Source: Piscirickettsiaceae bacterium
GTDB lineage: Bacteria > Pseudomonadota > Gammaproteobacteria > Nitrosococcales > Methylophagaceae
Reading direction: 5' to 3'
Length of the DNA: 64,000 nt
NCBI GenBank assembly: GCA_024685975.1
Contig: JAIBDZ010000007.1
Coordinates: 1-64,000, forward strand
The translations under genes and the position numbers were made by a program. Within the stretch, counting starts at the first letter, position 1. Each line of letters begins with the position of its first letter. The notes beneath the pieces were generated by a model. The model was not told where the DNA came from, did no database searches, and saw only the letters and a program-made list of their open reading frames with translations. Below, piece after piece: positions 2,363-12,250 of the stretch.

Positions 2363-4144
2363 ATGACCGATGAAGAGTTAAAACAAGGACAGTCACTCGA
2401 TGAAATCCTCGCAGTAGGCGCGATATCAACATTGTTTCAACCCATTGTCTCTTTAAAAGACAATACGATTTATGGTTATGAAGCATTAAGTCGTGGCCCT
2501 TCTGACAGCCCTTTACACTCTCCTATCACCTTATTTGATGCTGCAAGTCGTCACGGACGCATCGCCGAATTAGATTTATTATGTCGTGAATTAGCCATCA
2601 AACAATACAGTCGTTTAAATTTACCGGCTAAACTCTTTCTCAATACCATCCCTGCTGTATTATTGCAGGCAGATTACCAACACGACTTAACGCGCAAGTT
2701 TTTAAAACAAGCGGGCATGAGTCCAAATCAAGTCGTCATCGAATTAACGGAACAATACCCTATCGATGATTACCGCCTAATGCGTGATGCCACAGCGCAT
2801 TATCGTGCGATGGGATTTTCAATTGCCTTAGATGATCTCGGTGCAGGCTATTCCGGTTTAAGAACTTGGGCAGAATTAAAACCCAACTTCGTTAAACTCG
2901 ACCGCCACTTCATTCAGAACATCCATGAAGATCGGACCAAATTCCAATTTGTTCAATCCATGTTAGATATTGCTCACAGCATTGATTGCAAAGTCATCGC
3001 AGAAGGCATTGAAGTCAGGGAAGAATATCTCGCCAATCATGAAATGGGCAGCGATTTTGGCCAAGGGTATTACTTTGCCAGACCCAATCAGCGCCCTTTA
3101 AAGCAAATCAATCCTAGCTTATTTCAACAACGCCAAGATAGTTACGAGCGGTTATTCCAAAAACGTTCTGAACATCGTGTCAATAAACTGCTCATCCAAC
3201 TACAACCCGTTTATGACACGGAAAATATCATCGAAGTCGGCGAGCGGTTTCAAAACGACCTCTCCCTCACCGCCTTGCCTGTAATTACCAAAGATAACAA
3301 ACCCTTAGGCATGATTTCACGCAACGAATTTATGGCTGTTTTTGCCAGCCGCTATGGTCGTGACTTACATGGTCGAAAGCCAATTAGTGAATTTTTAAAC
3401 GTCGCACCATTAATTGTTGATATTGATATGCCACTCAAATCACTGAGTAATCTCATCACAAGCAATGATAATGGCGACAAATATAGTGTTTTCATTATCA
3501 CAGAGCATGAGTATTACTGTGGTGTCGGTAATATCATGGACTTATTACGTCTTATCACCGAGATGCAAATCACTTCAGCACGCTATGCGAATCCCTTAAG
3601 TGGTTTACCCGGCAATGTGCCTATCAGTGAATATATTAAACAAGCTATCGAACAAAATGAGCCTGCGGTTTTATGTTATATCGATCTAGATAATTTCAAA
3701 CCCTATAATGATACTTATGGGTATGAGAAGGGCGACAAAGTCATTTTAGATACCGTCAAACTGCTCAACCAAGTGACCGCCGTTGATTATGATTTTGTCG
3801 GTCATGTTGGTGGTGATGACTTTATTGTCATTTTCAAACAAAAAGATTGGTTAGAGAAATGCCAAACATTACTCCAATTATTCACCGCTCTTCACCCGCA
3901 TTTCTACCATAAAAAGCACATAGAACAGCAAGGCATTGAAGCCCAAGATCGCCAAGGAAACCCCCATTTCTTTCCGCTATTGAGTTTGTCCATTGGTGTT
4001 GTTGATTTGGCTGACTTCCCAACGATCAAAACAGAGTCCGAAGTCGCTGAAAAAGCCACTAAAGCGAAATCATTAGCGAAGAAAATAACCGGAAATAGTA
4101 TTTATAAATTAACGCAAGAATCAGCATTGTTAATCGCGAGTTAA
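2363..4144 (+). CDS. EAL-CBS-GGDEF cyclic-di-GMP signalling protein
   Basis: Soluble 593-residue c-di-GMP turnover protein without membrane segments. The N-terminal EAL phosphodiesterase domain (about 10-250) looks catalytically complete: YEALSRG, the metal-binding ELTEQ glutamate, ALDDLGAGYS, KLDR and VIAEGIE are all present. Residues 270-400 resemble a CBS pair, a likely nucleotide-sensing module. The C-terminal GGDEF domain (about 420-590) has DLDNFKPYNDTYGYEKGD and a GGDDF signature. GGDDF departs from GGDEF/GGEEF at the fourth residue, so cyclase activity is uncertain; the domain may act as a GTP sensor. It lies alone between the porin terminator and the convergent arsC-like gene. Net phosphodiesterase activity is my inference. 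Confidence 0.88.
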   Translation: MTDEELKQGQSLDEILAVGAISTLFQPIVSLKDNTIYGYEALSRGPSDSPLHSPITLFDAASRHGRIAELDLLCRELAIKQYSRLNLPAKLFLNTIPAVLLQADYQHDLTRKFLKQAGMSPNQVVIELTEQYPIDDYRLMRDATAHYRAMGFSIALDDLGAGYSGLRTWAELKPNFVKLDRHFIQNIHEDRTKFQFVQSMLDIAHSIDCKVIAEGIEVREEYLANHEMGSDFGQGYYFARPNQRPLKQINPSLFQQRQDSYERLFQKRSEHRVNKLLIQLQPVYDTENIIEVGERFQNDLSLTALPVITKDNKPLGMISRNEFMAVFASRYGRDLHGRKPISEFLNVAPLIVDIDMPLKSLSNLITSNDNGDKYSVFIITEHEYYCGVGNIMDLLRLITEMQITSARYANPLSGLPGNVPISEYIKQAIEQNEPAVLCYIDLDNFKPYNDTYGYEKGDKVILDTVKLLNQVTAVDYDFVGHVGGDDFIVIFKQKDWLEKCQTLLQLFTALHPHFYHKKHIEQQGIEAQDRQGNPHFFPLLSLSIGVVDLADFPTIKTESEVAEKATKAKSLAKKITGNSIYKLTQESALLIAS

Positions 4145-4145
4145 C

Positions 4146-4574
4146 TTAAGCGGGTTGAGGTAGTTTCGCCAAAACATGTTCGACCCGTTTTTTCACTTTA
4201 TCTCGGGTCTGACGATAAGCGTCTAATACCGCTTTTGTATCCCCTGTCACTTTTGCAGGATTACTTAAGGGTAAATGAATCTTCATTGTTTCAAAGCTCA
4301 TAATGGGGCATTGCTCTTCGACTTTATCACATAATGTGACAATCAAATCCGCCCACTCTAATAATTCGCTGTTCACCCTAACAGGGACTTGCTTTGACAT
4401 ATTAAGACCAACTTCATTCATCACTTTAATCGTTAAAGGATCAATATCTTGAATCGCAATGCCGGCTGATTTTACTTTCACAAGATCGCTCGCCAGCTCT
4501 CTAGCCCAAGCTTCCGCCATTTGGGAGCGACAAGCATTATCTGCTGACAAAAATAATACGCGAATTCGACTCAT
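4146..4574 (-). CDS. ArsC-like (LMW-phosphatase fold) protein lacking the catalytic Cys
   Basis: 142-residue protein aligning without gaps, over its first ~110 residues, to thioredoxin-coupled arsenate reductase of the Bacillus ArsC type (sequence recalled from memory). Cys15, Arg16, Ser17, Cys82 and Cys89 are kept. However, the P-loop reads FLSADNACRSQMAE: the nucleophile Cys10 is Ser (codon TCA), and the general acid Asp105 is Asn (LPLSNPA). As read, it should not form the arsenylated Cys intermediate. It retains the Cys82/Cys89 redox pair. The start has a good AGGATAAAAAC-ATG context. It lies on the opposite strand from the arsR-GAPDH-arsJ operon about 1 kb away, so an arsenic-related role is likely, perhaps binding or sensing. 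Annotation pipelines will call it arsenate reductase; that function is doubtful. Confidence 0.85.
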   Translation of the reverse strand: MSRIRVLFLSADNACRSQMAEAWARELASDLVKVKSAGIAIQDIDPLTIKVMNEVGLNMSKQVPVRVNSELLEWADLIVTLCDKVEEQCPIMSFETMKIHLPLSNPAKVTGDTKAVLDAYRQTRDKVKKRVEHVLAKLPQPA

Positions 4575-4733: not shown

Positions 4734-5408
4734 GTGAAAAAACTGATTCAACCTCTTATCCTCGTTTTTATTATTCTTTTACCTTCATATGCCCTCGCAG
4801 AAACGACCCGCTACGTTTCTGATGAACTCGAAATTACGATGCGTAATGGTAAAGGCGTCAAATTTGCCATTCGTAAAATGTTGCGCAGCGGGACCCGTTT
4901 AAGCGTGATTGAGACGGATTCATCCGGTTACTCCAAAGTCCGCACACCAGGCGGAACGGAAGGCTGGGTATTAACCCGTTATCTAAGTAATGTGCCAAGT
5001 GCTCGCAACCGCGTCGCCGATAGTGAACAAAAAGCGGCCAACCTTGAGCTTGAACTCACAAAAGCAAAAGAAGAAATCCAACAACTCACCAGCCAAAAAG
5101 ACAGTACAGGCAGTGAAAATATGACGCTGAAAGAAACAGCCCAACGTCTTCAGAAAGAGCTGGATGATTTAAAAAGAACCGCTTCTAATGCCGTCGCATT
5201 AGATAATGAAAACCGCAAGCTGAAAGAACAGATTCAACAAATGGATCATCAAATGCAATCCATTACCCATGAAAATAACACCTTAAAAGATAGCGAAGCC
5301 AAGAACTGGTTTCTTATCGGCGCAGCTGTGCTCTTTGGCGGCATCATTTTAGGGCTTCTGTTACCTAAATTACGCCTACACAAGAAAAACAGTTGGGGCA
5401 GCCTCTAA
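4734..5408 (+). CDS. TIGR04211-type SH3 / coiled-coil membrane protein (YgiM-like)
   Basis: Envelope protein of 224 residues with the YgiM/TIGR04211 architecture. It has a cleavable signal peptide (LILVFIILLPSYALA), a bacterial SH3 domain (about 25-90, with the GWVLTRYLS end motif), a long heptad-rich coiled coil (about 95-185), and a C-terminal membrane helix (WFLIGAAVLFGGIILGLLLP) followed by basic residues. The SH3 domain probably binds peptidoglycan on the periplasmic side. The start is a GTG at 4734, chosen because it places the signal peptide correctly. It is monocistronic, ending in a strong terminator. Precise function is unknown in the family. Confidence 0.85.
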   Translation: MKKLIQPLILVFIILLPSYALAETTRYVSDELEITMRNGKGVKFAIRKMLRSGTRLSVIETDSSGYSKVRTPGGTEGWVLTRYLSNVPSARNRVADSEQKAANLELELTKAKEEIQQLTSQKDSTGSENMTLKETAQRLQKELDDLKRTASNAVALDNENRKLKEQIQQMDHQMQSITHENNTLKDSEAKNWFLIGAAVLFGGIILGLLLPKLRLHKKNSWGSL

Positions 5409-5540: not shown

Positions 5541-5894
5541 ATGACAATACAAGCTGATGATGTTTATTCCGTGTTATCCCATCCTATGCGTCTACGTGCC
5601 CTTGTTTTGATTCATCAAACCGATGAGTTATGTGTCTGTGAATTAACCCATGCCCTAGGCCTAGCCCAACCTGTTATATCAAGACACCTTGCCCAATTAA
5701 AAGAAGCGGGCCTATTACTCTCCCGCCGGCAAGGACAATGGGTTTATTACCGTATACATACGGACTTACCAACATGGGTACAACAATTAATCCTGATTAC
5801 AGTTGAAGGCGTCAAAAACACCTCACCGTACAGCGATGACATTTTACAACTCAACACAATGGCAAACCGTCCCGGTCTTGCTTGTTGCTCATAA
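5541..5894 (+). CDS. arsR: ArsR-family arsenic-responsive repressor
   Basis: 117-residue winged-helix repressor. The ELCVCEL motif (about residues 30-36) is the classical As(III)-binding Cys-x-Cys in the DNA-binding region, and the recognition helix follows as LAQPVISRHLAQLKEAGLL. The C-terminus ends CCS, adding two vicinal cysteines that could contribute a further thiol ligand. Start ATG 5541 has GGAGAAGATA upstream. It is the first gene of a tight operon with a GAPDH (9-bp gap) and arsJ, and a matching palindrome lies just upstream. It should release DNA when arsenite or a related trivalent arsenical binds. Confidence 0.95.
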   Translation: MTIQADDVYSVLSHPMRLRALVLIHQTDELCVCELTHALGLAQPVISRHLAQLKEAGLLLSRRQGQWVYYRIHTDLPTWVQQLILITVEGVKNTSPYSDDILQLNTMANRPGLACCS

Positions 5895-5903
5895 GGAATC
5901 AGC

Positions 5904-6914
5904 ATGGCTTTACGTATCGGCATCAATGGCTTCGGTAGAATGGGCAAGCTTGCTCTTCAAGCGGGTTGGGATAATCCCGCATTAGAATTCGTACACATCA
6001 ATGAAATAAAGGGTGGAGCAGACTGCCACAGTCATTTACTCCAATTTGATAGTATTCATGGACGATGGGATAAAGCAATTCATCATACCGATAACGATAT
6101 TATCATTGATGATACGACCATCAGCCTAAGTCAAAAGGCTTCGCCAGAAGAGGTCAATTGGGCTCAATATAATGTCGATATCGTGTTGGAATGTAGTGGT
6201 AAATTCAAAACAGAACAACAACTACAGCCTTACTTTGATCAAGGCGTGCAATATGTTGTGGTCTCGGCACCTGCACCCGATCCCGCCCTTAACATTGTCT
6301 ATGGTGTTAATCATCACTTATTTGATCCAAAACAACACCGCATTGTCACCGCGGCATCATGCACCACCAACTGTTTAGCCCCCATGGTCAAAGTGATGCA
6401 TGAATCACTCGGCATCAAACATGGTTCTATTACCACCATCCATAATATTACCAATACACAAACCATCGTCGATAAAGGGCACAAAGATTTACGCCGAGCC
6501 CGAGCTTGCGGTCAATCACTGATCCCCACCACAACCGGTTCAGCTAAAGCGATTACAACCATTTTTCCTGATTTAAAAGGCAAGCTAAATGGTCATGCCG
6601 TTCGTGTCCCTATTCTCAATGGCTCTATCACTGATTTTGTCTTTGAATCTCAACGTGATACGACAGAACAAGAGATCAATGCGTTATTCGAACAAGCGGC
6701 TAAACATGAATTACAAGGCATCTTAGGTTATGAAACACGTCCTCTTGTCTCAGTCGATTATACCCATGACCCAAGATCGAGCATTATTGATGCGCTGTCG
6801 ACGATGGTCGTCAATAAAACACAGGTCAAACTGCTCGCTTGGTATGACAATGAATGGGGATACGTTAACCGTATGATCGATATTGTCACCTTAATTCACG
6901 ATTCGCTAGATTAA
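5904..6914 (+). CDS. ArsJ-associated glyceraldehyde-3-phosphate dehydrogenase
   Basis: 336-residue GAPDH paralogue. It shows the NAD-binding [12 protein letters not shown] glycine motif at the N-terminus, the catalytic [11 protein letters not shown] cysteine (about residue 152) and the C-terminal [12 protein letters not shown] segment, so the enzyme looks complete. In ars operons this GAPDH uses arsenate instead of phosphate with glyceraldehyde-3-phosphate, giving 1-arseno-3-phosphoglycerate, which ArsJ then exports. Placement between arsR and arsJ with small gaps supports this specialised role rather than central glycolysis. Confidence 0.94.
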
Positions 6915-6947: not shown

Positions 6948-8156
6948 ATGAATTCAATAAAAAGTATTCAACAATACGCCATTATCAGTGGTAGTTATTG
7001 CGCTTTCACATTAACGGATGGCGCACTACGTATGCTAGTGGTGCTATATTTTTACCAACTGGGTTACTCCCCTCTAGCCATTGCCAGTTTATTTTTATTT
7101 TATGAATTCTTTGGCATTGTCACCAACCTTGTTGGAGGATGGCTGGCATCACGGTTTGGCTTAAACAATACCATGCATATTGGCATGTTATTGCAGATCG
7201 GTGCCTTAATTATGCTCACCGCACCACCCGAGTCTTTGACCGTCATTTACGTCATGGCGGCACAAGCCATTTCTGGTATTGCAAAAGATCTTAATAAAAT
7301 GAGTGCCAAAGCCGGCGTGAAATTGCTCTTGCCCGAGCACCAAGCGCAATCAAGCCAGCTCTTTCGTTGGGTGGCCATACTAACAGGCGCAAAAAACAGT
7401 TTAAAAGGCGTAGGATTCTTTATCGGCGGGTTACTGTTATACCTCTATGACTTCAAAACTGCGATGATTATCTTGGCCTTAGGCTTACTGGTGGTGTTAA
7501 TCACCACCTTAATTTATTTACCTAGAAATATCGGTAAAACTAAAAATAAACCTAAATTCACCCAGCTCATTACTCACTCTCCCACCATCAACTGGCTATC
7601 TGCCGCTCGTTTTTTCCTATTTGGGTCACGTGATGTCTGGTTTGTCGTCGCTCTGCCTGTTTATCTCTCCAGTACTCTCAATTGGAGCCATGAGCAAACA
7701 GGAGGCTTCTTTGCACTGTGGGTTATTGGCTATGGCTTTATTCAGGCCTTAACGCCCAAACTATTAGCAAAGCATCATCCCACGGGTAAGTCCGCACAGT
7801 GGTTAGCTTGGTTATTAATGCTATTCCCTACAGGCATCGCTCTTGTACTAGCAGTCGGTCTTGATCCGACAATGGCCATCATTACAGGTTTAAGCCTCTA
7901 TGCAGTCGTTTTTGCTATCAATTCTGCTGTTCACTCCTACCTGATTGTCGAATGGTCAGATCACGATAAAGTGGCGATGAATGTGGGCTTTTATTATATG
8001 GCCAATGCTGGCGGACGCTTAACAGGGACTATTCTCTCTGGACTTATCTTTCAATATTATGGCCTGATTGGTTGTCTGCTGACGGCTTCACTGTTTGTCA
8101 CCAGTGCGGCACTTATCTCAAGCAAACTTACCCTGAACGAAAAAGCCCCAGTTTAA
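6948..8156 (+). CDS. arsJ: Organoarsenical efflux MFS transporter ArsJ
   Basis: 402-residue major facilitator with about 11-12 hydrophobic segments spread over the whole length. It includes the N-terminal YFYQLGYSPLAIASLFLFYE region and GWLASRFGLNN loop typical of ArsJ. Following the GAPDH gene at 33 bp, it is the exporter of 1-arseno-3-phosphoglycerate; the ester breaks down outside the cell, releasing arsenate. The pair confers arsenate resistance without reduction to arsenite, which fits the doubtful catalytic state of the nearby ArsC-like protein. RBS AAGGTT precedes the ATG. The gene's last codons overlap a hairpin that can serve as terminator for the convergent yccA. Confidence 0.94.
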   Translation: MNSIKSIQQYAIISGSYCAFTLTDGALRMLVVLYFYQLGYSPLAIASLFLFYEFFGIVTNLVGGWLASRFGLNNTMHIGMLLQIGALIMLTAPPESLTVIYVMAAQAISGIAKDLNKMSAKAGVKLLLPEHQAQSSQLFRWVAILTGAKNSLKGVGFFIGGLLLYLYDFKTAMIILALGLLVVLITTLIYLPRNIGKTKNKPKFTQLITHSPTINWLSAARFFLFGSRDVWFVVALPVYLSSTLNWSHEQTGGFFALWVIGYGFIQALTPKLLAKHHPTGKSAQWLAWLLMLFPTGIALVLAVGLDPTMAIITGLSLYAVVFAINSAVHSYLIVEWSDHDKVAMNVGFYYMANAGGRLTGTILSGLIFQYYGLIGCLLTASLFVTSAALISSKLTLNEKAPV

Positions 8157-10411: not shown

Positions 10412-12250
10412 TTAACTTAATTTGGACAAATCCCTCACTGCCCCTTTATCCGCAGAGGTTGCAAGCATAGCAAAGGCTTTTAATGCTGCCGAGACTTTAC
10501 GCGGTCTTGCTTCGACGGGTTTCCAACCTAATTGATCTTGTTCCACGCGGCGTTGTGCTAACTCCTCATCAGACAATAAGACATCAATTGTTCTATTAGG
10601 AATATCAATGCGGATTGTGTCCCCTTTTCTCACCAAACCAATCGCGCCGCCCGCAGCCGCTTCTGGCGAGACATGGCCAATCGATAAACCAGATGTCCCA
10701 CCAGAAAAACGGCCATCGGTTAATAAGGCACAGGCCTTACCCAGACCTTTAGATTTGATATAAGACGTTGGGTATAACATTTCCTGCATGCCAGGCCCGC
10801 CTCGTGGCCCTTCATAACGGACGATAACCACATCGCCAGCTTGAACTTGATCAGTCAAAATATGTTGTACCGCTTCATCTTGTGATTCTGTAATATGTGC
10901 TGGTCCTTCAAACACTAAAATAGACTCGTCAACACCGGCTGATTTCACCACACAGCCATCTACCGCAATATTCCCTCGTAAGACGGCCAAGCCCCCTTCC
11001 AATGAAAAAGCATGATCTAGCGAACGAATACAGCCTTCAGCACGGTCTTCATCAAGAGTTGGCCAACGCGTCGCTTGGCTAAACGCTTCTTGTGTCGGAA
11101 TGCCTGCTGGACCCGCCATATAAAACGTCTTCACGTCCTCAGATGGGTTACGCATAATATCCCATTCATCCAAGGCGGCTTTTAAGTCTGGCGCATGCAC
11201 TGTCGGCACATCGGTATGTAATTTTCCAGCACGATCTAACTCACCCAAAATCCCCATAATACCGCCAGCACGATGCACATCTTCAATGTGATATTGCGGT
11301 GTATTCGGTGCGACTTTACATAATTGAGGAATATCCCGAGACATACGATCAATGTCTTCTAAGGTGAAATCGATTTCTGCTTCTTGAGCAATTGCCAATA
11401 AATGCAAAATCGTATTCGTCGACCCGCCCATAGCAATATCTAAAGCGATAGCATTCTCAAAGGCCTTAAAGCCAACTGAACGCGGTAATAAACGCACTTC
11501 ATCTTGCTCATAATAGCGTTTGGCCATATCCACAATAGTTCGGCCCGCTTGTAAAAATAATTGCTCACGATCGGCATGCGTCGCCACAACTGTACCGTTA
11601 CCCGGCAATGACAAACCTAATGCTTCTGTCAGACAATTCATTGAGTTCGCTGTAAACATACCTGAACAAGAGCCGCAAGTTGGACAAGCGCTTCGCTCAA
11701 CAGCCGCGACGTCTTCATCAGATGCACTATCATCAGCCGCCATCACCATTGCATCGACAAGATCAAGTTTCACATCTTTACCGGCTAATTTTGTTTTACC
11801 CGCTTCCATCGGACCGCCAGAGACAAAAATAACCGGAATATTTAATCGCATTGCTGCCATTAACATGCCCGGCGTGATTTTATCGCAGTTGGAAATACAC
11901 ACCAGTGCATCAGCACAATGCGCATTCACCATATATTCCACCGAGTCAGCGATAATGTCGCGAGACGGCAATGAATAAAGCATGCCATCATGTCCCATCG
12001 CGATGCCATCATCGACAGCAATCGTATTAAACTCTTTCGCCACGCCACCGGCTCGCTCAATTTCACGCGCAACAAGTTGACCTAAATCTTTCAAATGGAC
12101 ATGACCTGGCACAAATTGCGTAAAAGAGTTAGCAATCGCTATAATTGGTTTTTTAAAATCATCGTCTTTCATCCCTGTTGCCCGCCAAAGCGCACGAGCA
12201 CCAGCCATATTGCGGCCTGCGGTCGATGTTTTAGAACGATATTCTGGCAT
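10412..12250 (-). CDS. ilvD: Dihydroxy-acid dehydratase
   Basis: Dehydrates 2,3-dihydroxy-isovalerate and -methylvalerate in valine, leucine and isoleucine synthesis; cytoplasmic Fe-S enzyme. The 612 residues match the E. coli-type length. Cluster ligands are visible in [13 protein letters not shown] and [11 protein letters not shown], with the family segment [20 protein letters not shown] after them and the C-terminal [18 protein letters not shown] motif. The start [10 protein letters not shown] is the conserved N-terminus. It stands alone, divergent from argA and ending in its own terminator. Confidence 0.98.

Follow-up and report, generated by a model that had tools for sequence, protein, structure and literature searches.

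The window analysed here, a stretch of 64,000 nucleotides of Piscirickettsiaceae DNA, carries beside an arsR-GAPDH-arsJ operon an arsC-like gene in which serine and asparagine replace Cys10 and Asp105, and this gene belongs to a clade of three species in which purifying selection continues after loss of these residues. No description of a natural ArsC with such a double substitution was found among the open-access papers searched. As far as can be read from sequence, a natural, selected and doubly disarmed ArsC in a clade that has the ArsJ route is unusual, and we infer for it a non-reducing function.

Cys10 and Asp105 are replaced in a predicted ArsC fold

The gene and its active-site codons are located as follows:

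4146..4574, minus strand: arsC-like gene of the LMW-PTP fold, with Ser10 and Asn105 replacing Cys10 and Asp105
4524..4547, minus strand: P-loop codons 10-17, S-A-D-N-A-C-R-S, with the Ser10 codon TCA at 4545-4547
4260..4262, minus strand: Asn105 codon within LPLSNPA, the position being counted from the ORF start

The ORF encodes 142 amino acids, starts with ATG and has no internal stop. It matches the Pfam LMWPc domain (2.2e-18), and its best NCBIfam match is the thioredoxin arsenate reductase TIGR02691 with 122 bits, below the curated cut-off of 174. Residues 6-132 align without gaps with B. subtilis ArsC (1jl3), and the numbering of Ser10 and Asn105 is therefore correct. This alignment confirmed the residues named in a preliminary description of this DNA, i.e., Ser10 (TCA), Asn105 and the retained Cys15, Arg16, Ser17, Cys82 and Cys89; Asn13 is retained as well. 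All three clade members aligned have Ser10 where the CX5R loop normally carries its catalytic Cys10, and Asn105 instead of Asp105, the proposed general acid; the redox pair Cys82/Cys89 is present in the clade. Cys10 is the nucleophile of ArsC, and roles of Cys82 and Cys89 have also been given (PMC6193951). Loss of the canonical reductase mechanism, as the preliminary description proposed, is the natural reading of these residues.

The AlphaFold2 model of the protein (pLDDT 87.7) superposed at 1.2 Å on 1jl3 (TM 0.91/0.94) and at 1.4 Å on the engineered C10S/C15A S. aureus ArsC (1jf8), so that in the prediction the ArsC-like fold is intact. The protein resembles the thioredoxin-coupled ArsCs (1jl3 and S. 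aureus pI258) in fold, length, P-loop frame and the residues Asn13, Cys15, Arg16, Ser17, Cys82 and Cys89, and differs from them in having neither the nucleophilic Cys10 nor Asp105. With the C10S/C15A variant of pI258 ArsC (1jf8) and YwlE C7S (4kk4) it shares a serine at the nucleophile position and a folded oxyanion pocket; however, these are laboratory mutants, whereas the Ser10 ArsC is natural, also carries Asn105 and is under selection. Use of a former enzyme fold without enzyme chemistry is known from Spx and from other ArsC-fold/PTP-fold pseudoenzymes. Spx, an ArsC-family regulator (PMC2801614), has the unrelated E. coli-type ArsC fold, and we claim no regulatory role for the Ser10 ArsC.

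Two independent natural Ser10 cases were seen elsewhere. In Kiritimatiellota (L029 7419-8444), a protein combines a ~190-aa N-terminal domain without Pfam match with a Ser10 ArsC domain in which Asp105, Cys82 and Cys89 are retained; in Planctomycetota (L063 7956-8420), an ArsC-like protein with Ser10 keeps Asp105 and is without Cys89. No arsJ, acr3 or arsR was found near either, and as both keep Asp105 and are without these genes nearby, they give no support to the ArsJ-linked account developed below.

The substitutions mark a clade and occupy the ancestral arsC slot

Both substitutions also occur in two of 28 congeners of the genome of the window (G000): G012 (Piscirickettsiaceae MAG SI034_bin143, 71% identity) and G014 (Piscirickettsiaceae MAG bin.8, 67%). 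These belong to two further species of the genus (loci L003/L019 and L004/L020), so the change is not confined to one genome, and the Ser10 codons across the three species are TCA, TCG and TCT. Every other full-length family ArsC in the alignment (29/29) has both Cys10 and Asp105. A pattern search of 369 gammaproteobacterial genomes returned 78 occurrences of the canonical Cys10 P-loop, a Ser10 P-loop among true ArsCs in G000 only, and no match to an AGY-coded Ser10 P-loop; a TCN-coded match in G205 sits within an apparent sucC and was rejected as chance.

In the gene tree, the Ser ArsCs form one clade with 100% support on a long stem of 0.48 substitutions per site; conservation of Ser10/Asn105 in a clade, a point raised in the preliminary description, thus holds across three species. 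A six-gene species tree grouped G000, G018, G012, G025, G014 and G023 with 99-100% support. The ilvD gene was left out of this tree because it is an outlier (recombinant), a first tree with ilvD having misplaced G000. The G000 ilvD (10412-12250, minus strand) is ~90% identical to those of g2, G017 and G001 and 78-79% to those of its own clade, which suggests recombination or transfer of ilvD beside the ars locus.

The gene order of the slot is fxsA, porin, EAL/GGDEF and arsC, then a divergent SH3 gene, arsR, GAPDH and arsJ, followed by acr3 in some genomes, then by ilvD and argA. The immediate neighbours of arsC in the window are:

2363..4144, plus strand: EAL/CBS/GGDEF protein gene, convergent, conserved in the slot, outside the arsenic system
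4734..5408, plus strand: SH3-domain membrane protein gene, divergent, conserved in the slot

In related species, the same syntenic slot holds a canonical Cys10 ArsC, and searches of G000, G012 and G014 gave no further LMW-PTP-type ArsC. The Ser10 protein is therefore the vertically inherited orthologous ArsC of the lineage, and not the paralogue that it had been taken for. G018 retains a 21-codon arsC remnant, MSRIRVLFLLTGNACRSQMAKD-stop, whose Leu10 codon TTG is one step away from the G012 Ser10 codon TCG, and arsC is absent from G023 and G025, where it was lost along with the EAL/GGDEF gene. The latter gene is also gone in G018, and the copy beside arsC in G012 (L187 7338-8039) is internally deleted. 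Most simply, therefore, C10S and D105N arose once, before the first split of the clade, and some branches then lost the gene.

The clade has the ArsJ route and no detected intact arsenite pump

Downstream of the SH3 gene, the window carries:

5541..5894, plus strand: arsR, with ELCVCEL and C-terminal CC cysteines
5904..6914, plus strand: ArsJ-associated GAPDH (NF033735, 563 bits, cut-off 450)
6948..8156, plus strand: arsJ (NF033734, 560 bits, cut-off 400)

This neighbouring operon is a bona fide arsR-GAPDH-arsJ operon, and the cysteines of its ArsR suggest arsenite sensing. ArsJ is almost universal across the genus. The linkage to arsJ that had been claimed for the Ser10 protein held for the clade, but it is not peculiar to it, as canonical ArsC adjoins the same operon in relatives. 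In G011, the GAPDH gene beside arsJ (L167 9373-9537) consists of its two ends only; ArsJ and Acr3 are still there. In the window, arsC is not part of the arsR operon and is read from the other strand. A simple motif test revealed no ArsR-like operator upstream of arsC, but it also performed poorly on the operator expected in front of arsR.

Acr3 is present in most genomes with canonical ArsC; neither intact acr3 nor arsB was found in G000, G012, G014, G018, G023 or G025. These absences are soft for G000 and G014, which are incomplete (68% and 81%), so that G012 (94%) and G018, G023 and G025 (99% each) weigh most. The G000 acr3 is a 120-aa fragment in which the first 115 Acr3 residues are joined to unrelated sequence, by a real deletion or in a chimeric contig. 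At the break, this fragment (L177 7912-8274, C18) is fused to an ORF resembling plasmid mobilisation sequence, and an ArsH-like FMN reductase and a second arsR lie near it. In the genera g1, g2 and g4 (33 genomes), acr3 was found in 9/12 genomes with canonical ArsC vs 1/21 without (Fisher p = 5e-5, no correction for phylogeny). The coupling has exceptions, as G001, G016 and G029 have a Cys10 ArsC without detected acr3. A Grx-type ArsC whose NPRCSKSR motif is intact occurs in G000, G012 and most relatives in a lapB-arsC-wrbA cluster (names from sequence reading), and because it persists in most of these genomes, arsenate reduction may not be lost.

The arsenate route of V. cholerae consists of ArsR, GAPDH, the PTP VarH and ArsJ, without ArsB; its ArsC yields no arsenite. 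Replacing this ArsC with an active arsC from E. coli does harm if ArsB is not provided as well, and the authors proposed that loss of ArsB came first and inactivation of ArsC followed (PMC9601151). The Ser10 locus resembles the V. cholerae VC2165/var operon in its ArsR-GAPDH-ArsJ genes, in having no ArsB pump and in an ArsC that would not serve resistance. However, VC2165 belongs to the E. coli-type ArsCs and still has its catalytic Cys, whereas here the catalytic residues of another ArsC family are changed. By analogy, the locus fits the inactivation idea in a second ArsC family.

We lean, a little beyond an even judgement, to the view that after arsenite efflux was lost, C10S and D105N disarmed ArsC, which was then retained as a non-reducing oxyanion/dithiol protein. 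With efflux lost in the lineage, thiol-based arsenate reduction would have turned into a burden, since arsenate leaves unreduced by the ArsJ route. ArsC would then have given up its reductase chemistry but retained Cys82 and Cys89 as well as the oxyanion pocket with its P-loop amides, Asn13, Arg16 and Ser17; it could bind arsenate or phosphate without turnover, and possibly arsenite via its cysteines, working beside the ArsJ pathway as a buffer, a sensor or a thioredoxin partner. The most likely function would thus be non-reducing: the intact P-loop would bind an oxyanion, and Cys82/Cys89 might carry out thiol chemistry. The double substitution occurs where arsR-GAPDH-arsJ is present and intact Acr3/ArsB was not found; the persistence of the Grx-type ArsC, the arsenite-type cysteines of ArsR and the position of arsC outside the arsR operon count against this reading. 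The function is dispensable, as three of the six clade species have no intact copy. A more specific proposal, which we regard as doubtful, is that this natural double catalytic mutant traps or senses arsenate (or phosphate) and thereby feeds GAPDH-ArsJ export, a role so far undescribed for the ArsC fold.

The protein might instead still be an enzyme with altered chemistry, a phosphatase, arseno-ester hydrolase or reductase that uses the serine or Cys15/Cys82/Cys89; it might, for instance, release arsenate from 1-arseno-3-phosphoglycerate, as proposed for VarH. Arg16, Ser17 and the three cysteines are conserved, omega is low (see below), and the phosphorylated active-site serine of YwlE C7S in 4kk4 indicates that a serine in such a pocket can be phosphorylated; in addition, a PTP, VarH, is needed beside the V. 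cholerae GAPDH-arsJ operon (PMC9601151). However, VarH requires its own catalytic Cys, the loss of the proposed general-acid residue as well argues against turnover, and the gene lies outside the arsR operon and was lost in sister species. Cys-to-Ser is, moreover, the standard inactivating change in the PTP superfamily, and we consider altered chemistry unlikely.

The Ser10 ArsC is under purifying selection

Codon analysis under the GY94 model with 18 taxa gave an omega of 0.057 in the Ser crown; the stem and the canonical lineages both had 0.063. Crown omega = 1 was rejected with 2dlnL = 220, i.e., 110 log-likelihood units lost; the omega value is rough because synonymous sites are saturated, but the rejection of neutrality is still not subtle. 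Neutrality was also rejected in single-tip tests for G000 (2dlnL = 39) and G014 (10.9), whereas the G012 tip alone carries no information on omega, branch lengths trading off in per-tip estimates. Among 66 columns that are at least 95% conserved in canonical ArsCs of the family, eight differ in all three Ser10 ArsCs, and C10 and D105 are the only radical changes among these; 53 of the 66 are invariant inside the Ser10 clade. The probability that both catalytic residues fall among the 8/66 by chance is 0.013. These data indicate that strong purifying selection continues after loss of the catalytic residues, at a level on a par with canonical ArsC, and the earlier claim that the gene is maintained was upheld.

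A decaying relic, a dead gene heading for loss, would fit the Leu10 remnant of G018, the absences in G023 and G025, the broken EAL/GGDEF gene of G012 and the missing signal of the G012 tip. However, three intact ORFs persist at 67-71% identity, neutrality is rejected for the crown and for G000 alone, and only ~2% of simulations still had an intact ORF at 0.3 neutral substitutions per site. The relic reading, which we consider improbable, is already largely disfavoured.

The maintained protein might also act mainly through protein contact, with thioredoxin or a regulator, using oxyanion binding as a switch. It retains both Cys82 and Cys89; the LMW-PTP-fold protein mt-SAF26 belongs to the trypanosome mitoribosome assembly complex, and in Thermus TtSmtB-TtArsM an ArsR-family repressor binds an arsenic enzyme (PMC8649762). 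The partner is only hypothetical here, however, and Cys82/Cys89 are kept by nearly all relatives, so that their retention may be inertia; we judge this very improbable. Finally, although all three genomes appear to be MAGs, an assembly or sequencing artefact has a negligible chance, since the double change in two other species and the three synonymous Ser codons, together with conserved synteny and intact ORFs, exclude chance or error.

Implications

Disarming after loss of arsenite efflux, the reading we prefer, makes testable a proposed evolutionary step, in which the arsenate reductase has to be disarmed once a bacterium is without arsenite efflux and dependent on ArsJ. V. cholerae hinted at such disarming from a Cys-bearing enzyme; here the catalytic residues themselves are altered, and in a defined clade. 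New with respect to the V. cholerae case is the purifying selection after loss, which is unexpected of a mere vestige. The Ser10 clade, hosted by a small group of uncultured gammaproteobacteria, offers canonical relatives in the same slot together with stages of loss (intact, remnant, absent). If the Ser10 gene is annotated as 'arsenate reductase', the label that family searches would assign, arsenate reduction in these genomes is overstated.
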